From Bacteroidota bacterium (GTDB lineage: Bacteria; Bacteroidota; Bacteroidia; Bacteroidales; B39-G9), in the NCBI GenBank assembly GCA_015222055.1, contig JADFUR010000034.1, positions 1-38,644 on the forward strand: a DNA stretch of 38,644 nt, read 5' to 3'. Of the stretch, positions 4,762-29,509 are shown piece after piece (within the stretch, counting starts at the first letter, position 1; every line of letters starts with the position of its first letter). The position numbers were made by a program, and so were the translations under genes. The notes under the pieces were generated by a model. It made no database searches and was not told where the DNA came from. It saw only the letters and a program-made list of their open reading frames with translations.

Positions 4762-6720
4762 ATGGATACAATAATTCAATTGTTTGAAGAAAGTGTAAAT
4801 AAATATAGTGATAATCCATTGTTATGGGAAAAAACAAGCAATGAATTTGAAAGTATCTCTTATAAAGAAACTCAAAAATTAGTTTACGAATTTGCTGCCG
4901 GATTATTAAGCCTTGGGGTTCAAAAAAAAGATAAAATCGCATTGCTTTGTGAAGGAAGAAACAATTGGATTATAAGTGAATTAGGCGTTTTATATACAGG
5001 TGCAGTAAATGTACCATTATCTGTAAAATTAGAAGCAAAAACAGAACTATTATTCAGATTAAATCACTCTGAATGTAGCATGGTTATTACATCAAAAAAT
5101 CAGTCTAAAAAAATACAAATTATAAAAGACAAATTACCCAGTCTAAAAAAAATAATTTATTTAGATTCTCTGGATGAATATAAAAAAAACGAGATTGGCT
5201 TTAACGAAATTTTAAAATTGGGCGAAGATTATTTGAAAACAAAATTTAATGAATTTGAAAAAAATTGGAAATCAATAAAACCTAATGATTATGCTAATAT
5301 AAGCTATACATCAGGGACAACTGCCGACCCAAAAGGAATTATTTTATCTCAACAAAATTATGCTGCAAATGTTGAACAAGCTGCCAGTTTAATGTATATA
5401 CCAGAACATTACAGAACTTTATTAATATTACCCTTAGATCATTCATTTGCACACACAGCAGGTATTTATAGCTTTATGTATTATGGAGCAAGCATTGCGA
5501 CGGTTCAGCTTGGAAAATCATCTTTAGAAACATTAAAAAATATTCCAAAAAATATAAAAGAAATTAAGCCGAACATACTGTTAAGCGTTCCTGCTTTGGC
5601 GAAAAATTTCAAAAAAAATATTGAAAAAGGAATACACGAAAAGGGCTCTAAAGTTGAAAACTTATATAACAAAGCTATGAAATTAGCTTATGCATATAAC
5701 AAAGAAGGATGGAATAGAGGCAAAGGATTGCAAATATTAAAAAAACCTTTGTATGCAATATACGATAAATTAATTTTTAGCAAGATACGTGAAAACTTTG
5801 GCGGCGAACTAAAATTTTTTATTGGCGGCGGTGCTTTACTGGATATTGAATTACAAAAATTCTTTTATGCCATTAATATGCCGATGTTTCAGGGATACGG
5901 ACTATCAGAAGCATCTCCAATTATTTCATCAAATGGATTAGAAAAACATAAATTAGGTTCTTCGGGTTATCTTGTAAAAAACATGGAACTTAAAATTTGT
6001 GATGGTAAAGGAAATACTTTGCCTACAGGTGAAAAAGGTGAGATTGTTATTAAAGGCGATAATGTTATGGTTGGCTATTATAAAAACGAGAAATCTACTA
6101 AAGAAACTATTAAAGATGGCTGGTTATATACAGGAGATTTGGGATATATGGATAAAGACAAATTTTTATATGTTCTTGGTAGATTTAAAAGCCTGTTAAT
6201 AAGTAATGATGGCGAAAAATTTAGTCCAGAATCAATTGAAGAAGCTTTTGTGCAGCAATCACCTTTTATTAATCAATGTATGTTACATAACGATCAAAAT
6301 CCTTATACCGTAGCATTATTTGTAACTGATAAACAAGCCGTTTTGCATTACTTAACAAATAATAATTTATCTGCGGATACAGAAGAAGGACAAAAAGTTG
6401 CTTTAAATAAAATTCAATCGGAAATTAATGAATATCGAAAAGGCGGAAAATACAAAGAAATGTTTCCTGAAAGATGGCTGCCAAGTGCTATTGCAATTCT
6501 TGAAGAAGCTTTTTCTGAAGAAAATCATTTTATTAACAGCACTGTTAAAATGGTTAGAGGCAAAATTACCAAATATTATCATAAACGTATTGAATATCTT
6601 TACACTCCAGAAGCAAAAAATATTCATAACGATCTAAATATGAAAGCAATAAAAATACTTGAAGAGAAACGTAATTTAATTGCTAAGGAAGCAAAAAAAG
6701 AACCTGTTAAAGCAAATTAA
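4762..6720 (+). CDS. Long-chain fatty acid CoA ligase (AMP-forming)
   Basis: 652 residues from ATG 4762; a GTG three bases upstream is less likely. It is a member of the ANL adenylating superfamily, FadD15-like by length and layout. It activates a fatty acid to acyl-AMP and then acyl-CoA. Motifs: phosphate loop YTSGTTADPKG (about residue 180), aromatic/adenine motif GYGLSEASPI (about 380), the YTGDLGYMDKD Asp (about 455), and the hinge GRFKSLLISNDGEKFSP leading to the C-terminal lid. The usual hinge 'K-E-L-I' is K-S-L-L here, a mild divergence. The C-terminal lid is long and ends in a Lys/Glu-rich tail. The protein is probably cytoplasmic or membrane-associated. The gene stands alone, with no beta-oxidation genes beside it, so membrane-lipid recycling or exogenous fatty acid use are equally possible. 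Confidence 0.9.
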   Translation: MDTIIQLFEESVNKYSDNPLLWEKTSNEFESISYKETQKLVYEFAAGLLSLGVQKKDKIALLCEGRNNWIISELGVLYTGAVNVPLSVKLEAKTELLFRLNHSECSMVITSKNQSKKIQIIKDKLPSLKKIIYLDSLDEYKKNEIGFNEILKLGEDYLKTKFNEFEKNWKSIKPNDYANISYTSGTTADPKGIILSQQNYAANVEQAASLMYIPEHYRTLLILPLDHSFAHTAGIYSFMYYGASIATVQLGKSSLETLKNIPKNIKEIKPNILLSVPALAKNFKKNIEKGIHEKGSKVENLYNKAMKLAYAYNKEGWNRGKGLQILKKPLYAIYDKLIFSKIRENFGGELKFFIGGGALLDIELQKFFYAINMPMFQGYGLSEASPIISSNGLEKHKLGSSGYLVKNMELKICDGKGNTLPTGEKGEIVIKGDNVMVGYYKNEKSTKETIKDGWLYTGDLGYMDKDKFLYVLGRFKSLLISNDGEKFSPESIEEAFVQQSPFINQCMLHNDQNPYTVALFVTDKQAVLHYLTNNNLSADTEEGQKVALNKIQSEINEYRKGGKYKEMFPERWLPSAIAILEEAFSEENHFINSTVKMVRGKITKYYHKRIEYLYTPEAKNIHNDLNMKAIKILEEKRNLIAKEAKKEPVKAN

Positions 6721-20880: not shown

Positions 20881-22656
20881 ATGGCGAAAACTAATTTTAT
20901 TGGAAAGTTCTTATTATGGCGTGTTAAACATATTAAACAAAGACAATTTATTTTGTTTTTGAGTTTTATTGTTGGGATTTTAAGTGGATTAGCTGCAGTT
21001 ATTTTAAAAAACACAATTCATTATACTCGAATTTTACTAACTCACGGTTTTGATGTTCAAAATGAAAATATTTGGTATTTCGCCTTTCCAATATTCGGAT
21101 TATTTTTAACAGTAATTTTTGTTAAGTATATTGTAAAAGATCAAATTGGACATGGTGTAAGTAGAATTCTATATGCTATTTCAAAAAAGAATAGTATAAT
21201 TAAATCACATAATAATTTTTCTTCAATTATTGCCAGTACTTTCACTATTGCTTTTGGTGGTTCTGTAGGTTCTGAGGCTCCAATTGTTTTAACCGGGGCT
21301 TCTTTAGGTTCTTCACTGGGGCGATTATTTCATTTAGATTATAAACAAGTTACCCTACTCGTAGGCTGTGGTTCAGCAGGAGCTATTGCCGGAATTTTTA
21401 ATGCCCCTATTGCTGGATTAGTTTTTACTCTTGAAGTATTGATGCTTGATTTAACAATGGCTTCTTTAATTCCATTATTGATTTCTGCTGTAACGGCAAC
21501 AATGGTTTCGTTTTTTTTAATGGGAAAAGATGTATTATTAACATTTGATTTAACCCATGCGTTTATTTTTAATAATATACCTTACTATATTTTACTTGGT
21601 GTTTTTACGGCATTCATTTCAGTATATTTTACTAGAGCATCAATGTTTGTCGAAAATAAGCTGGATAAAGTAAAAAATTCATTCCGAAAATTAATCTATG
21701 GAGGGCTTATTCTCGGTTTGTTAATTTTTATTTTCCCTTCTTTATTTGGTGAAGGATATGATACTTTAAAAATAATTTTGAGTGGACATGGTCCAGATAT
21801 TTTAAATAACAGTCCATTTTATTCCATTAAAGATAACTATTGGTTATTCATTATTTTTCTTAGCTTAATTTTAATATTTAAAGTTATTGCTATGGCTGTT
21901 ACTAATGGTGCTGGTGGAGTTGGAGGCGTTTTTGCCCCATCTTTGTTTATGGGAGGATTATCAGGATATCTCTTAGCACTTATTATTAATAAAAGTAAAT
22001 ACATTAATGTCCCTGAAAGTAACTTTGCTCTTGTTGGTATGGCTGGTGTTATGGCTGGTGTTATGCATGCACCAATGACATCAATTTTCCTTATTGCCGA
22101 AATTACTGGGGGATACGATTTGTTTATTCCTTTAATTATTACCTCAACTATATCGTTTATTACGATTAATTATTTCGAGCCTCATTCTATTTATACTAAA
22201 CGTTTAGCAAAAAGAGGGGAACTTATTACTCATAATAAAGACCGGGCAGTTCTTACTTTAATGAAACTAGGTAAGGTTATTGAAACTGATTTAAAAACTA
22301 TCAGCCCCGACAGTACTTTAAAAGATTTAGTTAATATTGTTTCAAAATCAAAACGAAATATTTTTCCTGTTGTTGATGAAAAAAACATATTGCTTGGTAT
22401 TGTTTTATTAGATAATATTAGAGAAATTATGTTTAATCCAGATATGTATGAAACAACTTATGTGCATGAGTTAATGATAATGCCACCGACATATGTATCT
22501 TCGAATGAACCAATGGATTGCGTGATGAAAAAATTTGAAGAATCAAGAGCCTGGAATCTTCCAGTTATTGATGATGATGTTTATGTTGGATTTGTTTCAA
22601 AATCAAAAATATTTTCAGCTTATAGAAGAATTTTAGTATATTTCTCTGATGAATAG
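20881..22656 (+). CDS. CLC anion channel/transporter with C-terminal CBS pair (copy 1)
   Basis: 591 residues from ATG 20881. The open frame runs 38 codons further upstream, but this start aligns with the second copy (FLLWRVKHIKQR against FLIWRMKHISRR) and gives equal length. The membrane domain (about 15-435) has the selectivity motif G-H-G-V-S in place of GSGIP; FGGSVGSEAP, keeping the gating Glu in the GREGP motif; GGVGGVFAP for GxFxP; and the central Tyr in GGYDLFIPL. The inner proton-relay Glu of E. coli ClcA aligns with Val (FTLEVL). Two CBS domains follow (about 455-585). The expected role is chloride or other anion movement across the inner membrane, with CBS sensing of nucleotide or ionic state. 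Whether it is channel or exchanger is open. Confidence 0.9.
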   Translation: MAKTNFIGKFLLWRVKHIKQRQFILFLSFIVGILSGLAAVILKNTIHYTRILLTHGFDVQNENIWYFAFPIFGLFLTVIFVKYIVKDQIGHGVSRILYAISKKNSIIKSHNNFSSIIASTFTIAFGGSVGSEAPIVLTGASLGSSLGRLFHLDYKQVTLLVGCGSAGAIAGIFNAPIAGLVFTLEVLMLDLTMASLIPLLISAVTATMVSFFLMGKDVLLTFDLTHAFIFNNIPYYILLGVFTAFISVYFTRASMFVENKLDKVKNSFRKLIYGGLILGLLIFIFPSLFGEGYDTLKIILSGHGPDILNNSPFYSIKDNYWLFIIFLSLILIFKVIAMAVTNGAGGVGGVFAPSLFMGGLSGYLLALIINKSKYINVPESNFALVGMAGVMAGVMHAPMTSIFLIAEITGGYDLFIPLIITSTISFITINYFEPHSIYTKRLAKRGELITHNKDRAVLTLMKLGKVIETDLKTISPDSTLKDLVNIVSKSKRNIFPVVDEKNILLGIVLLDNIREIMFNPDMYETTYVHELMIMPPTYVSSNEPMDCVMKKFEESRAWNLPVIDDDVYVGFVSKSKIFSAYRRILVYFSDE

Positions 22657-22724
22657 AAAAAAAACTATTACACAAATATCTTTACACGGTAATAATTTTA
22701 ATTTATTTTACTTTAAAGGGTAAT

Positions 22725-22830
22725 TAATTGTCATTAAGTCATTTATTGACATTCATTTTTAAATCATACAATGAAATTGTAATGAATGACACAAAGTTAA
22801 TGACGTGAAACAAAATGACAAATAGTAAAT
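22725..22830. repeat. AATGAC short repeat cluster A
   Basis: This gap after CLC copy 1 has GTCATT words on the left (TTGTCATTAAGTCATT) and AATGAC words on the right. It includes one full unit at 22799-22819: AATGAC, mini-hairpin core GTGAAAC (22805-22811), then AAAATGAC. The outward-facing halves could pair into a larger stem. It belongs to the same family as the clusters at 23284 and 28099. Confidence 0.6.
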
Positions 22831-22890
22831 TTAATTTATCTCCCGAAAAAACATTTTGCTATTGCCTTAAAAAATTATTGCTGTAAAGAA

Positions 22891-23136
22891 TTATTTTACA
22901 AACTTATTGTATAAGCATGTAAATATTGCTCCACAAATAACACCTTCAACAAATCCCCAGATTAGTCCAATAAATGCACCTCCCCAAGTTACAGAATAGC
23001 CCAGGTAAATTTTCCCTAATAAAGAAAGAGTATTTCCGTCATATCCAAAACAAATAAACCAAATTGTTAAAAAAAATACAGCAATACCCCATAAAATACC
23101 AGCGGCTAAAGAAAAAGCTTTTACATTTAATTTCAT
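22891..23136 (-). CDS. Small holin-like membrane protein
   Basis: 81 residues with two hydrophobic segments (about 8-32, AGILWGIAVFFLTIWFICFG, and 48-76, rich in Gly: GGAFIGLIWGFVEGVICGAI). It resembles short proteins labelled 'bacteriophage holin' or DUF5676-like in databases, which start MKLNVKAF...CGI(L/V)WG. No phage genes are near, so the holin name is a family label and not evidence of lysis. It has a near-perfect Shine-Dalgarno, unlike its neighbours, and sits between two CLC genes within repeat-rich gaps. Its role is unknown; a small accessory to membrane transport is one guess. Confidence 0.8.
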   Translation of the reverse strand: MKLNVKAFSLAAGILWGIAVFFLTIWFICFGYDGNTLSLLGKIYLGYSVTWGGAFIGLIWGFVEGVICGAIFTCLYNKFVK

Positions 23137-23141
23137 AACGA

Positions 23142-23147
23142 CCTCCT
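23142..23147 (-). promoter_or_regulatory. Strong Shine-Dalgarno AGGAGG
   Basis: On the minus strand AGGAGG-TCGTT-ATG gives five bases between the site and the start of the small membrane protein. It fixes the start at 23136. Sites of this strength are rare in Bacteroidetes, and I saw none in front of the other genes checked here. Confidence 0.85.
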
Positions 23148-23283
23148 AATTTTTTGTTTAAGTAAATTTACAAAATAAAAATACTTAAAAAAAATATTTT
23201 AAATTACCGAATAATTATTGATTTATTTTTATTATAGAATGTTGATGTTCCGTGCTTTACGAAAATAAATTTATATTATATGA

Positions 23284-23440
23284 TTACCAATAGGCATTAA
23301 TAGGCATTGATTGTCAATGATTGTCATTAATAATAGCCATTAAATTGTCATTTTATATAAACAATAAAATGACGCGAAGCAAATGACAACAATGACGTGA
23401 AACAAATAGCGGCGAAGCCAAATGACTATCAATGACGAAT
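23284..23440. repeat. AATGAC short repeat cluster B
   Basis: This is the densest of three related clusters. It holds three mini-hairpin cores: GCGAAGC (23374-23380), GTGAAAC (23397-23403) and GGCGAAGCC (23411-23419). They are flanked by AATGAC and/or CAAATGAC (the 5' flank of the third core and the 3' flank of the second are degenerate). Several TGTCATT words lie to the left. GTCATTTTAT (23347-23356) and ATAAAATGAC (23364-23373) form a perfect 10-bp hairpin around ATAAACA. The left end has AGGCATT repeated (TAGGCATTAATAGGCATTGATTG). No ORF of note is present. Confidence 0.7.
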
Positions 23441-23476
23441 TAAATAAGTATCTAAATATTTATTTTACTAACAGTC

Positions 23477-25255
23477 TTAATCCTCAGAAAATTTTTTTAG
23501 TAATAATCGGTATGATGAAAACACTTTTGCTCGCGAAACAAATCCCATATATTTTCCATCTTTTAAAACAGGTAAATTAAAATTGTCGGATAACTGAAAT
23601 TTTTCTGCAACGCTTTCCATTAATTCGTCAGGATCAACAGTAGGCTCTGGCATAAACATTAAATCTCTTACATCTGTTGTGTTGTATAATTCGGGCTTAA
23701 AAATTATATGTCTAATATCGTTAACAAAAACAATACCTACCATTGTATTATCATTTTCTAAAACCGGAAAAATATTCCTGCTTGATTTTGAAATTATTTG
23801 CACTAAATCGCCTAAACTAGCATCAGAATTTACACAACTAAAATTCGTTTCTATTAAACTCGTTACTTTCATTCTTGAAAGTGCTGCTTTGTCTTTGTCG
23901 TGAGTAATTAGTTCTTTTCTATTTGCTAATTGAATAGTATAAACTGAATTTTTTTCAAATAGTTTTATTGTAATATATGAAAATGCAGCAGTAATCATAA
24001 GAGGAACAAATAATTGATAACCTTTTGTAATATCTGCTATTAAAAATATTCCCGTTAAGGGTGCATGAAGAACTCCAGCAATTAATCCTCCCATACCTAT
24101 TAATGCAAAATTTGCTCTTGACAAATGAGTTATGCCGAGTCTATTTACAATTAAAGAAAATAATAAACCTACGTTTGACCCAATAAATAAGGTAGGAGCA
24201 AATATTCCACCAACTCCTCCACTTCCAAATGTTACTGATGTTGCTACAACTTTTAATAATATTATTGATACTAAAAGAATTATTAAAACAATAAAATTAT
24301 CTGAATATGAAGAAAAAATATTATTTTCAAATAAAAAAGTATAATCGCCTGCTAAACAGGAATTTATTGCATCATATCCCTCACCGTATAAGGCTGGAAA
24401 AAAAAATATTAAAGTCCCTAATGAAAGTGCACCAATTATTAATTTTTTATAAATATTATTTATCTTTTTAAAATAGCCTTCAATAAACATAAACATTCGT
24501 GTAAAATAGACAGAAACTAATCCGGCGAGTATTCCTAGAGCTATATAGTAAGGAATATTTGTCATATCAAAAGCTTCATTTATAACATCAGGAGAAAATA
24601 TGGTTGTTTGTCCAAGAAACAAATAAGATACCACTGTTCCCGAAATTGAAGCCAATAATAAAGGAACTAACGAATATGTTGTTAAGTCAATCATTATAAC
24701 TTCTATGGTAAAAACAAGGCCGGCAATAGGAGCTTTAAAAATTGCAGCCATTGCTGCTGTTGAAGCACATCCTAATAATAATGTTATTTGTTTATAATTT
24801 AAATGAAATAGTCTCCCAATATTTGCTCCAATAGAAGCTCCCGTTGCCACAGTTGGGCCTTCTAGCCCTACGGAACCACCAAAACCAACGGTTAAAGAAC
24901 TTGTTATAATTGACGAAAACATATTATGAGATTTAATTCTTCCGTTTTGCTTTGCTATGCTGTGTAATACAGTTGGTATGCCATGATGTACCGGTTGTTT
25001 TAAAAAAACTTTAATAAATATTATTGCCAATGAAATACCAACTACTGGATAAATAAAATATAAATAACTATCATAATCATTAGTTATTCCATGTTTAAGC
25101 ATCTCTTTAATAAGATGAACAGAATTTTTAATTAATACCGCCCCTAATCCCGCCGTAATACCAACAATAACGCTCATTATTAGCATAAAAGGTCTACGAC
25201 TGATATGCTTCATTCTCCAAATTAAAAATTTTTTAAACAAATCTCGGATAAGCAT
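23477..25255 (-). CDS. CLC anion channel/transporter with C-terminal CBS pair (copy 2)
   Basis: 592 residues, collinear with copy 1 over its whole length and roughly half identical by eye. Selectivity region H-H-G-I-P; gating motif GGSVGLEGP with the Glu; GGVGGIFAP; Tyr in KGYQLFVPL. As in copy 1, the position of the E. coli ClcA inner Glu is Val (FTIEVI). The CBS pair is at about 455-590, ending LLLKKFSED. It is in the opposite direction to copy 1, with the small membrane protein gene between them. The GREGP-like motif is closer to consensus here (GLEGP against GSEAP), so the two copies may differ in gating or anion choice. Confidence 0.9.
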   Translation of the reverse strand: MLIRDLFKKFLIWRMKHISRRPFMLIMSVIVGITAGLGAVLIKNSVHLIKEMLKHGITNDYDSYLYFIYPVVGISLAIIFIKVFLKQPVHHGIPTVLHSIAKQNGRIKSHNMFSSIITSSLTVGFGGSVGLEGPTVATGASIGANIGRLFHLNYKQITLLLGCASTAAMAAIFKAPIAGLVFTIEVIMIDLTTYSLVPLLLASISGTVVSYLFLGQTTIFSPDVINEAFDMTNIPYYIALGILAGLVSVYFTRMFMFIEGYFKKINNIYKKLIIGALSLGTLIFFFPALYGEGYDAINSCLAGDYTFLFENNIFSSYSDNFIVLIILLVSIILLKVVATSVTFGSGGVGGIFAPTLFIGSNVGLLFSLIVNRLGITHLSRANFALIGMGGLIAGVLHAPLTGIFLIADITKGYQLFVPLMITAAFSYITIKLFEKNSVYTIQLANRKELITHDKDKAALSRMKVTSLIETNFSCVNSDASLGDLVQIISKSSRNIFPVLENDNTMVGIVFVNDIRHIIFKPELYNTTDVRDLMFMPEPTVDPDELMESVAEKFQLSDNFNLPVLKDGKYMGFVSRAKVFSSYRLLLKKFSED

Positions 25256-25410
25256 ATAATTTTATTAATAAATTAAAATTAAACAATAGCTAACTTGATT
25301 TTCTTTATCCTCTCTCCTACTACAATTCTTTAATAAAAAAATTCAGAATAGTATCAATATTTTTTTGCTAATATAATGTTTAATTTATTTTTAGTGAGAG
25401 AATTGTGTGA

Positions 25411-25815
25411 AAATTTTGAAAAAAAAATCAACCAGATTCCATTTTTACAGTTCATTTAGCTAAGAAAGGTAAGTTAATAACACATAATAAAAAAAAAGTT
25501 GTTGCTAAATCGAAACGTGCTATTTAACCTGTTGTTGATGAATAGAATTATCTTAATGTGATTGTTTATTTAAATAATATTCGTGAAATCTTGTTCAATA
25601 CTGATATTTACAATTTTTTTTTGTGCATAATTAAATCGTTCTTTCCCCGCTTATATTTCATATTTTGATACAATGAATGATATAATTAATAAATTTAATG
25701 ATACTAATGCAAGACCCCTCCCCATTATAAATAAAGCAAAGTATGTTAGATTTGTTTCAAAAAAAAACTTTTTTCCTTTTACCGTCAACTGTTGGATGAT
25801 ATCTCACAAGAATAT
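25411..25815 (+). pseudogene. Decayed third CLC gene: only the CBS tail remains
   Basis: In the 732-base gap between CLC copy 2 and the ABC genes, the plus strand encodes a broken version of the CLC C-terminus. From 25429 it reads PDSIFTVHLAKKGKLITHNK, matching PHSIYTKRLAKRGELITHNK of copy 1. There is then a deletion, then SKRAI-stop-PVVDE-stop and VYLNNIREILFNTDIY (copy 1: NNIREIMF-like, FNPDMY). After a frameshift it reads YVRFVSKKNFF and, in another frame, FSFYRQLLDDIS, matching the end of both intact copies. There are at least two in-frame stops, two frameshifts and an internal deletion. The membrane domain upstream is gone. It is closer to copy 1 than to copy 2 (LITHNK, PVVDE). Confidence 0.88.
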
Positions 25816-25987
25816 TTTTTTATTGTGTATGAAACTAAATTAAAATTATTTAATTTTACTGTAACATTTTTTATTTTCTTTTCGTCTTAAAAACATAAAG
25901 ATTTTTTTATAATTTAAACAATTCATTTTTTCATTTAACGTTTTATTTAATTGACCATTAATAATTAACAATTCATAATTTAGCAAT

Positions 25988-26656
25988 ATGATTACAATCA
26001 AAAATTTACACAAATCATATAATATAGGAAAAAACAAATTAGATGTTCTAAAGGGTATTGATGTACAAATTGAAGATGGAGAACTTGTTTCAATAATGGG
26101 ATCTTCTGGTTCAGGCAAGTCCACTTTATTAAACATTCTTGGAATTCTCGATAACTATGACATAGGGTCATATCATTTAGATGACATCTTAATTAGTAAC
26201 ATGAGCGAAAAAAAAGCAGCAAATTACAGAAATAAATACTTTGGTTTTGTATTTCAATCATTCAATCTTATTGCATTTAAAAATGCCATGGAGAATGTAG
26301 CTTTGCCTCTTTACTATCAAAAAGTTAGTCGAAAAAAACGCAATAAGATAGCTATGGAATATCTCGATAAAATGGGTATTTTAGATAGAGCTACTCATTT
26401 ACCAAGTGAAATGTCGGGAGGAGAAAAACAACGTGTTGCCATATCGAGAGCTCTTGTTACTCAACCAAAAGTAATTTTGGCTGACGAACCAACTGGAGCA
26501 TTAGATACTACTAATTCTTATGAAGTAATGGATATTCTAAAATCTATTAACGAAACAGGAATGACTGTAATTGTAGTTACTCACGAACAAGATATTTCTG
26601 AAAAAACAAATAGGGTAATAAGATTAAAAGACGGATTAATTGAAAATCACAATTGA
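25988..26656 (+). CDS. ABC transporter ATP-binding protein (MacB/LolD type)
   Basis: 222 residues. Walker [10 protein letters not shown] (about 37-45), Q-loop FVFQSFNLI, signature MSGGEKQRV (usual form LSGGQ-Q-R-V), Walker B VILADEP with the catalytic Glu, D-loop GALD and switch His in VVTHEQD. This is the LolD/MacB/FtsE-like class, which powers extrusion or mechanotransmission and not import. It is the first gene of a plus-strand set with two FtsX-like permeases and an adaptor. The gaps are 132, 222 and 46 bases, so a single transcript is likely but not proven. Confidence 0.95.
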
Positions 26657-26788
26657 AAAATTTGTTTACCTGTGTAGCCCATTATTCTTATTTCCTAAAA
26701 ATTATATTTTAGATGAGATTATTAATTACTGAAATTATTTTGTACAGAGAAATAACTTTTTAAACATTTAACTTTAAAACGATTATCA

Positions 26789-28021
26789 ATGTTTGATATA
26801 GACAGTTGGCAAGAAATATTTGGCACTATTAAAAAAAATAAGCTACGGACTTTTTTAACAGGCTTTAGTGTTGCGTGGGGTATTTTTATGCTTATAATTT
26901 TACTAGGCTCTGGTAAAGGTTTTGAAAATGGCGTGAAAAAACAGTTTGCCGGTGATGCTGTTAATAGCATTTGGGTATACAGCGGAAGCACTTCAATGGC
27001 TTATAAAGGTTTTAAACCGGGCAGAAGAATTCGATTTACGAACAACGATTATGACGAGACAAAACTTAAAGTGAAACAAGTAGAAGAAATTTCTTCTCGT
27101 TATGGAATTGGTGGAAATCATAGTATTACTTATAAAGAGAAATATGGAGCATTCAATATTGTTACTGTTCATCCTGCCACTAAGCATATTGAAAAAATCC
27201 AAATGAAAGAGGGGCGATTTATTAATGAAATTGACATTAATAAATATAGAAAAATTACTTCAATAAGCAAAATAGTAAAAGATGCATTATTCGATAAAAA
27301 AGAGGAAGCTATAGGAAAATATATTAATATTAATAATATTCCTTTTAAAGTAGTTGGTATTTTCGAAGATAAAAACGAAAGAGATAATCGTCGTATTTAT
27401 ATTCCAATAAGTACAGCCCAAAAAGTTTTCAACGGAAACAATAGGATTCGGAACCTTGCTTTTACAACAAAAAACGTTTCTCCAAAACAAAGTAAAAAAT
27501 TAGAAGAAAAGGTAAGAGAACAATTTGCTTCACGTCATAAATTCGACAAAGAAGATAAGAGTGCAATCTATATAAATAATAATATAGATAATTTTAGACA
27601 AGCTAATAATTTATTTACAGGAATAAGTATTTTTATATGGATTATTGGAATAGGAACAATAATTGCTGGTATTGTAGGGGTAAGTAATATTATGATTATT
27701 GTTGTAAAAGAAAGAACTAAAGAAATAGGAATTAGAAAAGCTATTGGAGCAACACCAAATTCAATAATTTTTCAAATTTTATCAGAAGCAATATTGATTA
27801 CCGGAATTGCAGGCTATGTAGGATTAGTGCTTGGCGTTGGTTTACTGGAATTGATTTCGACTAATTTAAAAGGCACTGACTTTTTCTTAAATCCTCAGGT
27901 AGATTTTAGAATAGCTATTAGTGCAACATTATTATTAATATTTTCAGGTGCTTTAGCAGGATTTTTTCCTGCAAAAAGAGCTTCGAAAATTAAACCAATA
28001 ATTGCTCTTCGCGATGAGTAA
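26789..28021 (+). CDS. MacB-type ABC permease 1
   Basis: 410 residues. N-terminal helix at about 20-45 (LRTFLTGFSVAWGIFMLIILLGSG), then a periplasmic MacB_PCD domain (about 45-270; TKHIEKIQMKEGRFINEIDI, IPFKVVGIFED, RRIYIPISTAQ), then three helices of the FtsX domain (about 280-400). The conserved cytoplasmic motif IIVVKERTKEIGIRKAIGATP and the closing FFPAKRASKIKPIIALRDE are present. It is a paralogue of the next permease (both open MFD-D-WQEIF). The two may form a heterodimer with the ATPase. The function in export of a peptide, lipid or drug is inferred from family. Confidence 0.93.
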   Translation: MFDIDSWQEIFGTIKKNKLRTFLTGFSVAWGIFMLIILLGSGKGFENGVKKQFAGDAVNSIWVYSGSTSMAYKGFKPGRRIRFTNNDYDETKLKVKQVEEISSRYGIGGNHSITYKEKYGAFNIVTVHPATKHIEKIQMKEGRFINEIDINKYRKITSISKIVKDALFDKKEEAIGKYININNIPFKVVGIFEDKNERDNRRIYIPISTAQKVFNGNNRIRNLAFTTKNVSPKQSKKLEEKVREQFASRHKFDKEDKSAIYINNNIDNFRQANNLFTGISIFIWIIGIGTIIAGIVGVSNIMIIVVKERTKEIGIRKAIGATPNSIIFQILSEAILITGIAGYVGLVLGVGLLELISTNLKGTDFFLNPQVDFRIAISATLLLIFSGALAGFFPAKRASKIKPIIALRDE

Positions 28022-28098
28022 TAGTTATAAAGTATCTGTGTATATGAAAGTATTAATTTGATTTGTGTGGTTATTTTTATATGGAATATGATTTATTT

Positions 28099-28210
28099 TT
28101 TGTCATTAATTGTCATTTGACTTCGCCGTCATTCAACTATTTAATAATGAAAACAATACAATTATTTCTCATTACAGAGTAGGCAATTAATGACTACTAA
28201 TGACTATTTA
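28099..28210. repeat. AATGAC short repeat cluster C, inside the ABC gene set
   Basis: It lies in the 222-base gap between the two permease genes. On the minus strand a full unit reads AATGAC-GGCGAAGTC-AAATGAC (28133 to 28112); the core is GGCGAAGCC of cluster B with one C to T change that leaves a G-T pair. Further TGTCATT and AATGAC words surround it (TTGTCATTAATTGTCATT; TTAATGACTACTAATGAC). Confidence 0.6.
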
Positions 28211-28243
28211 TAGTATAATAAGCACTAAATAAATATTTAAACT

Positions 28244-29509
28244 ATGTTCGATTTAGATAGATGGCAAGAGATATTCAGCTCATTAAAACATAACAAGTTA
28301 AGAACTTTCTTGACTGTTTTTGGAGTTTTTTGGGGAATTTTTATGCTTATGATAATGTTGGGCTCCAGCAGTGGTCTAACTAATGGAGTAACTGAAGGAA
28401 TGAAAGACTTTGCAACAAACAGTGCTTTTGTTTGGACACAAAGAACAACCCAGCCATATAAAGGTTTTCAGCGAGGTAGAAGATGGAATTTTACTAATGA
28501 TGACATGACAGGTATCAAAAAGAATATTCGTGAAATTAATATTCTTGCACCTCGATTGAATGGATGGGGCGGTGATGGAGCAAACAATGCTGTCAGAGGT
28601 ATTAAATCAGGAGCTTTTACTATTTCTGGAGATTATCCCGAAATTAATAAAATTGATCCTGTATTAATGGTAAAAGGTCGTTTCTTGAATAATGTTGACA
28701 TTGCGGAAAAACGCAAAATTGCAGTTATTGGAAACCATGTGTTTGATGTTCTCTTTAAACAGGATGAAGACCCAATTGGAAAATACATTAAAATTAAAAA
28801 TGTCTACTTTAAAGTTGTTGGCGTATTTAAACCTAAAAATCCAAATGTAAATATGGGAGGAGATAAAGGACAAACAATTTTTTTACCCTTTACAACTTTA
28901 CAGCGAACATATAATTTTGGAGATGTTGTTCACTATTTCGGTATAACAGCAAAAGAAGGTGTTCCTGTTTCTCAAATCGAAGATAAAGTAGTCACATTAT
29001 TAAAAAAACGGCATAAAATTGCACCTAATGATGAACAGGCTGTTGGACATGTTAATATTGAAAAAGAAGTAAAAAAAATATATATTCTATTTACAGGAAT
29101 GCACTTTTTAATTTGGATAGTTGGTATTGGCACTTTACTTGCAGGCGTTATTGGCATTAGTAATATCATGCTTGTAATTGTTAAAGAACGAACTAAAGAA
29201 ATTGGTATTCAACGTGCTATAGGAGCAACACCAAAAAAAGTAATAGGACAAATAATTACAGAATCGGTATTTTTAACTACCCTTGCCGGATACTCCGGAT
29301 TAGTAGCAGGAGTTGGAATTATTCAGGCTATTAATCTTATTTTAGTAAAATCTGGTGTCGATACAGGTATGTTTAAAAACCCAGGGGTCGATTTCAACAT
29401 CGCAATTATTTCTTTAATAATAATAATTTGCAGTGGTGTTTTTGCAGGATTATTACCTGCTTATAGAGCAGTAAAAATTAAGCCCATTGATGCTCTCCGC
29501 AGTGAATAA
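28244..29509 (+). CDS. MacB-type ABC permease 2
   Basis: 421 residues with the same plan as permease 1: N-terminal helix (LRTFLTVFGVFWGIFMLMIMLGS), periplasmic domain (about 45-285; MVKGRFLNNVDIAEKRKIAVIG, VYFKVVGVFKPK, GQTIFLPFTTLQ) and three C-terminal helices with VIVKERTKEIGIQRAIGATP and LLPAYRAVKIKPIDALRSE. Close similarity to the preceding gene shows a tandem duplication. Most MacB exporters are homodimers, so two permeases point to a heterodimer or to two alternative assemblies sharing one ATPase. Confidence 0.93.
   Translation: MFDLDRWQEIFSSLKHNKLRTFLTVFGVFWGIFMLMIMLGSSSGLTNGVTEGMKDFATNSAFVWTQRTTQPYKGFQRGRRWNFTNDDMTGIKKNIREINILAPRLNGWGGDGANNAVRGIKSGAFTISGDYPEINKIDPVLMVKGRFLNNVDIAEKRKIAVIGNHVFDVLFKQDEDPIGKYIKIKNVYFKVVGVFKPKNPNVNMGGDKGQTIFLPFTTLQRTYNFGDVVHYFGITAKEGVPVSQIEDKVVTLLKKRHKIAPNDEQAVGHVNIEKEVKKIYILFTGMHFLIWIVGIGTLLAGVIGISNIMLVIVKERTKEIGIQRAIGATPKKVIGQIITESVFLTTLAGYSGLVAGVGIIQAINLILVKSGVDTGMFKNPGVDFNIAIISLIIIICSGVFAGLLPAYRAVKIKPIDALRSE

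Follow-up and report, generated by a model that had tools for sequence, protein, structure and literature searches.

The window, a 38,644-nucleotide stretch that is contig C116 of a Bacteroidota genome (G000; 3.75 Mb in 118 contigs, 98.56% complete), contains three intergenic gaps with short AATGAC-framed repeats. Gap 1 separates a ClC channel gene from an 81-codon ORF, gap 2 separates that ORF from another ClC gene, and gap 3 lies between two MacB/FtsX-type permease genes. A first-pass annotation had described five repeat units in these gaps, and all five were located with the cores it gave, four on the plus strand and one on the minus strand. The first unit (core GTGAAAC, 22799–22819, plus strand) was read directly in the window and lies inside element 1 (22669..22854, plus strand). 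On the basis of BLAST and of its insertion relative to related genomes, element 1 is a diverged copy of a dispersed MITE-like element, with a left arm of GTCATT words, a centre and AATGAC hairpin units. A sixth, related unit, AATGAC-ACAAAGTT-AATGAC (22785–22804, plus strand), is the homologue of ACGAAGTT in other copies of the element. Element 2 (23284..23440, plus strand) is the main array, with GTCATT-like words on its left arm and AATGAC hairpin units on its right arm. These units have the cores GCGAAGC (23368–23387, plus strand), GTGAAAC with AATAGC as the right word (23391–23410, plus strand) and GGCGAAGCC with AATAGC as the left word (23405–23426, plus strand). Element 3 (28060..28215, minus strand) is an array at a site common to this genome and G001, a genome of the same genus; its frame resembles the G001 element ends, and it holds the unit with core GGCGAAGTC (28112–28133, minus strand).

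Counts within the window lie close to expectation, with no enrichment of AAATGAC (10 found, 9.69 expected) and weak enrichment of the longer pattern (3 found, a number reached by 9 of 100 shuffles). Despite this, the suspected excess over chance was borne out genome-wide. Allowing up to two mismatches, AATGACGNGAANCAAATGAC has 14 matches in the window's own genome and 34 in G001, against 0 for the reversed pattern in each. The looser pattern AATGAC-N1..20-AATGAC exceeds its control in the own genome (111 vs 15), G001 (584 vs 17), G002 (18 vs 11) and G003 (151 vs 51), and is rarer than its control in G005, a member of the same family (30 vs 62). At up to one mismatch, AATGACNNNGAANNNAAATGAC is present in 46 of 395 genomes drawn from the phylum; 36 of the 46 have a single match, and G256 has 25 against 0 for the control. 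A scan of species genomes with AATGACNNCGAAGNNAAATGAC matched at least 112 stretches, and 80 listed loci were examined further. The record titles of these 80 name Bacteroidota, Ignavibacteria, Calditrichaceae, Desulfobacterota/Deltaproteobacteria and Nitrospinota, plus one Curtobacterium, in which the core is unpaired. With the core left free, 287 matches vs 20 reversed were summed over eight further genomes, chosen since the AATGACNNCGAAGNNAAATGAC scan had already matched them, with an excess in all eight; the 150 matches listed comprise three genomes in full and 57 of the 86 in G437, the other four genomes being unlisted. The repeats are confirmed as a genome-wide family.

Arrays are unevenly spread in G001. 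In the 20 G001 contigs picked for their motif matches, 165 spacers occur in 231,578 bases, and the stretches of the own genome were likewise picked around matches. A further 20 G001 contigs, drawn by number from the remainder (C1–C23 range), have 5 spacers and no hairpin units in 154,749 bases.

Comparison with relatives reveals lineage-specific presence. Element 1 is absent from the syntenic gap of G002 and from G001, relative to which it comprises 175–176 extra bases, with a junction uncertain within about 10 bases. Element 2 is likewise absent from the syntenic gap of G002, where a lone GATGAC is found; the extra stretch measures 110–114 bases by the script's best junctions and up to about 150 by eye, the junction being ambiguous. 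G001 is rearranged in this region, with a short AATAAC-like piece. The site of element 3 is also occupied in G001, by an array far richer in GTCATT words and with a different core; element 3 is absent in G003 and G005, and the G004 sequence consists of N at this position.

A 174-base query, put together by visual comparison of four copies, identified by BLAST ten copies at 91–96% identity over at least 100 bases in G003. In the own genome it matched one copy at 90% identity, on contig C33, and the window at 22684–22829 at 86%. Of 23 BLAST matches, 18 (at least 90 columns) were aligned, and 14 of these entered a comparison of one homologous slot. Homology of most copies starts near TATACTTTAAACGGTCATT and stops near GCCCGAGAGCAGTATA; a longer left part, which begins with TATACTTCAC in intact or decayed form, is found in a full-length relative (L339), in one copy from G001 and in the two copies of the own genome. 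The end pattern TATACTTCRCWCGGTWATAAWTT, at up to three mismatches, has 35 matches in G001, 8 in G003, one each in G000 and G002, and none in G004 or G005; its control has two matches, both in G004, and none in G001. Within 450 bases inward of the end, at least three GTCATT/AATGAC words occur in 23 of the 30 loci found by TATACTTCRCWCGGTWATAAWTT, so that many arrays in this family form the inner part of a MITE-like element. Thirteen distinct elements have both ends at up to four mismatches and span 179–329 bases (12 in G001, 1 in G003); one of them, L373, contains a single GTCATT/AATGAC word. In the window, the ends are degraded for elements 1 and 3 and absent for element 2, at which (23284–23440) no TATACTT-type ends were recognised. 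The ends carry TA on both sides, likely a TA target-site duplication as judged from the sequence, where such a duplication is indistinguishable from part of the inverted repeat. No pairs of ends 700–3000 bases apart, such as would mark an autonomous parent insertion sequence, were present in the fetched loci, which reach about 1.5 kb from most ends, and no plasmid or phage carrier was found for one full element.

Read along the hairpin strand, an array begins with a series of GTCATT words, each usually followed by 4 bases, and continues through a short centre into AATGAC-core-AATGAC units. Some cores form hairpins (GTGAAAC, GGCGAAGCC, AGCGAAGCT, CGCGAAGCG and others), and others are plain short spacers (AACA, TATT). 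Because the two arms are complementary via GTCATT and AATGAC, the whole object is an imperfect palindrome that bears mini-hairpins on one arm; in Calditrichaceae loci, both arms can bear them. The 83 merged units of the 80 listed loci are mostly intergenic (62), with 15 at locus edges and 6 overlapping an ORF of at least 90 codons. Folded as single-stranded DNA, element 2 (z −3.38), element 1 (z −2.53) and the full-length relative L339 (z −4.75) are more stable than shuffled sequence, and L379 has a fold z of −2.04; many shuffles fold at least as well as element 3 does (z −1.32; 21/200). Just before position 6640 of L248 (Mucilaginibacter flavus), GTCATTG is repeated head to tail over a long stretch, its period being 7 compared with 10 in the window's genus, so a fixed helical phase is no common feature.

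The first-pass annotation had proposed that the bases on either side of a GAA triloop (N and N′) change together. Of the 14 AATGACGNGAANCAAATGAC matches in the own genome, 9 have Watson–Crick N/N′ pairs, as proposed, and 5 break the strict rule (A/A twice, A/G twice, T/C once). The 34 G001 matches (28 T/A, 4 T/G, 1 C/G, 1 C/A) are nearly invariant and so hold little information on covariation. In the homologous slot of the 14 element copies, the core is GTGAAAC in 3, GTGAAGC in 7, GCGAAGC in 2, CTGAAAC in 1 and decayed in 1, and the loop-adjacent pair is T-A in 3, T.G in 7 and C-G in 2; both GCGAAGC copies come from one duplicated segment.

We then measured covariation by re-dealing arms among distinct cores and counting paired cells, a procedure that overstates significance because distinct cores are related by descent. 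Neither the own genome (90/2000 for cores of length 7, 398/2000 for length 9) nor G001 (713/2000 and 344/2000, respectively) is significant, allowing for the number of tests in the former. In the 80 listed loci, which include 16 loci whose records resemble those of G001 itself (the G001-like loci) and 22 further Bacteroidota loci, cores outside the bait class pair in excess, with 54 of 75 cells paired vs 41.8 re-dealt at length 9 (0/2000; repeat 0/2000) and 25 of 32 vs 16.4 at length 11 (0/2000; repeat 1/2000). The excess is maintained in the 64 loci left on removal of the G001-like loci (45/60 vs 33.6 at length 9 and 25/32 vs 16.3 at length 11, both 0/2000), in which 7-base cores are not significant (292/2000). 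It is also present in the 42 loci left when the other Bacteroidota are removed too (39/51 vs 27.6, 0/2000, at length 9; 19/24 vs 12.7, 15/2000, at length 11). Among the 87 bait matches in the listed loci, the outer pairs are fully complementary in 62; without the G001-like loci the figure is 46 of 67, the main exception being ten A..G mismatches.

Leaving the core free gave the clearest case in a single genome, the Calditrichaceae genome G437, where 39 of 42 stem cells in the listed units are Watson–Crick vs 27.0 re-dealt (0/5000). The middle pair over its 14 distinct cores is G-C in 7 and C-G in 7. G440 also shows an excess (24/42 vs 17.3; 15/5000), G441 and G442 taken singly are not significant, and the four genomes pooled give 69/99 vs 46.3 (0/5000) over the 150 listed of 287 matches. 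The proposed pairing of stem changes is thus clear in the multi-taxon sets and in G437, and falls short of significance when the own genome or G001 is taken alone; it is real, with the proof coming from other genomes rather than from the window's own. The loop is small and conserved, as the first-pass annotation had it, and is better named GNA than GAA. In the four genomes, 95 of 115 inner-paired units have a GNA triloop (GAA 49, GCA 39, GTA 5, GGA 2), and AAA is the chief loop outside this class (12 of 115). Differently built yet pairing stems in several phyla suggest that the fold itself matters.

A family with this architecture and these ends, near-identical dispersed copies, lineage-specific presence, and stems that covary around a constrained loop is best read, with a confidence only just above even, as modular DNA mini-hairpins within REP/BIME-like intergenic palindromes, often inside MITE-like elements in the window's genus. 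The REP-like, non-autonomous character suspected at first is supported. A nucleoid-protein site and an RNA-processing signal, both put forward in the first-pass annotation, are candidate roles at most. In this model, mini-hairpins with 2–4 bp stems and GNA-type triloops, placed between AATGAC words, form one arm of an imperfect palindrome, and the AATGAC strand would fold when single-stranded, probably in replication. The element would be moved in trans by a putative transposase. The GTCATT arm would grow by local duplication, and hairpin units would be exchanged between arrays as modules. Stems would stay complementary because only foldable units are kept or re-copied, whether through template switching from one arm to the other, through recognition of the folded form, or through a mixture of the two.

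In the G001 arrays, the arm with 4-base spacers contains two-unit duplications, with identical spacers two units apart in 15 of 28 cases vs 5.4 expected (0/2000). Adjacent hairpin units resemble each other no more than randomly chosen ones do (3/28 vs 2.6), and local duplication of hairpin units was not found in G001. They therefore look more like modules passed between arrays than like copies made on the spot, although 28 pairs make a small sample; the G000 counts are too low for this comparison.

The strongest competitor is a purely mutational origin, which we regard as possible at roughly half the weight of the modular reading. Satellite-like AATGAC arrays would grow by slippage, stems would become complementary as small palindromes undergo template switching from arm to arm, and the hairpins would go unrecognised. 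The duplications in the GTCATT arm and the fast change of the array at the shared element 3 site are both consistent with such growth. Furthermore, G.T cells show no excess over A.C cells (13 vs 20 of 227 in the 150 listed units), a result that makes selection for pairing less convincing as the sole force and allows for template switching. However, a process of this kind does not account readily for GNA loops that are retained while stems vary, or for hairpin units that are not local duplicates. The T.G intermediate in 7 of the 14 copies of the homologous slot also speaks against it, though one lineage could explain these copies. A bolder extension of the modular reading, which we consider doubtful and less probable than the mutational origin, would make AATGAC-framed GNA mini-hairpins a cross-phylum vocabulary of the smallest mobile DNA modules (about 13–18 bases, word included). 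Each would be gained, swapped and kept complementary singly via a single-stranded hairpin and a common putative enzyme, with arrays and MITEs as mere carriers.

Were the units classical REPs, a RAYT (Y1) transposase would read the hairpin together with the AATGAC tag and move the repeats, and the tag-plus-hairpin plan is compatible with such a system. Y1_Tnp matches are also available in the relevant genomes (11 in the own genome, at least one in each of the seven genomes searched). The link to a RAYT or other Y1 transposase that the first-pass annotation had raised nevertheless failed to appear. AATGAC-N3..15-AATGAC pairs occur beside Y1 genes at 0 of 30 loci, covering 30 of the 34 Y1 matches, so that a Y1 gene flanked by its repeat, as in REPs with RAYT, is not seen at these loci, nor at any of those that belong to the own genome. 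Conversely, across 140 array or control loci, a Y1 profile built from 11 Y1 proteins on the plus strand of their loci gave two matches, one 8.8 kb from a unit and one in a locus without a unit. With no Y1 gene near the arrays examined, we consider this explanation improbable.

An equally improbable alternative places the function in RNA, with units serving, once transcribed, as signals for processing, stability or translation. Among the same-strand gaps of G000 and G001, 23 of 28 have the hairpin strand oriented with the genes (two-sided binomial 0.0009), a count that leaves out five contig-edge arrays and uses a 100-codon ORF caller that misses the window's 81-codon ORF. This preference is absent in the 80 listed loci (27 vs 23), both without the G001-like loci (21 vs 19) and within them, another pick of G001-like records (6 vs 4); since the wider set lacks the bias, the 23/28 figure may not hold, and it is not used here as support for RNA. 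L339 also folds as RNA (z −3.00), but its fold as DNA is stronger. The lack of a G.T excess argues against selection at the RNA level, and Rfam has no match in window positions 22500–28400 at E values up to 1, nor in eight loci at gathering scores. Chance similarity of AT-rich intergenic sequence, compatible with the near-expected counts within the window, is refuted by the genome-wide excess over controls, the dispersed homologous copies and the recurrence in other taxa, and can be given almost no weight.

The closest described kind is that of CGTC-tagged REPs and BIME-like mosaics, with a different stem, loop and frame. As characterised by Di Nocera et al. (2013; PMC3733652), CGTC-tagged REPs are palindromic, intergenic sequences in Bacteroidetes and other phyla, lacking a dedicated transposase, with 8–9 bp stems that begin with AT pairs, loops of 4–5 bases, an unpaired terminal CGTC, TGTC or CCTC tag and a CCA tail. 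The other strand of our units begins with NGTCATT, which reads as CGTC or TGTC if the core starts with G or A; this holds for 134 of the 150 listed units, in which the tag is part of the repeated word. Like those REPs, the units have no associated Y1 gene in the loci examined. In contrast, unit stems are 2–4 bp (cores of 7, 9 and 11 bases) closed by triloops, ATT lies outside the mini-hairpin stem, and units are arrayed between AATGAC words. Given these stems and loops, the units are not filed under CGTC REPs. At L130:2820–2870 in the own genome (contig C66), a CGTC-REP-type sequence GTCATTCC...GGAATCCCA adjoins an AATGAC array, an adjacency that hints at kinship between the two kinds of repeat.

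The elements share with MITEs a short, non-coding sequence, inverted ends, dispersed copies and a site that is empty in relatives. They differ in that the interior is a fast-changing mosaic of words, and the array design is also found in taxa in which such ends were not seen. The TAACTGA heptamers, seven-base direct repeats scattered between genes in some Bacteroidetes (MacGregor 2015, PMC4679880), have a comparable intergenic distribution, but the word differs and hairpin units are lacking; AATGAC is absent from the main text of that paper. GNA mini-hairpins are known as exceptionally stable oligonucleotides; according to PMC10527192, one with a 2-bp stem melts at 76.5 °C and CGCGAAGCG at 88.5 °C. 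Both GCGAAGC, as in d(GCGAAGC), and CGCGAAGCG occur literally as cores. In the open-licence PMC literature, we found no description of AATGAC-framed mini-hairpins or of a natural repeat family of GNA mini-hairpins, and the main text of a 2025 REP survey (PMC12306157) contains neither AATGAC nor GTCATT. The analysis indicates a scarcely described repeat class in genomes of Bacteroidota, Ignavibacteria, Calditrichaceae, Desulfobacterota and Nitrospinota. Unlike usual palindromic repeats, which are defined by sequence, the stem sequence here is free, and the GNA-triloop fold and AATGAC frame are retained across phyla. Template switching at quasi-palindromes is reported in E. coli (PMC7202029), and the arrays offer a natural test of how hairpins are preserved, by recognition of the folded strand or by template switching.

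Additional words share these settings. In L105, L108, L109, L119 (just after position 5662) and other G001 arrays, larger palindromic words such as CCCGTGAAATATTGCTTCGCAATTTCACGGGG and CCTGATAAATCAGG occupy the AATGAC frame, and in CCCGTGAAATATTGCTTCGCAATTTCACGGGG a stem longer than 10 pairs is capped by a GAA/TTC triloop. Further short-word arrays, with words such as TCGTTAAATCGTT and GTCCAACGTCCAACGTCCAA, lie in the same gaps in L190, L229 and L264 (Deltaproteobacteria/Desulfobacterota), and AATGAC may be one among several such word families.
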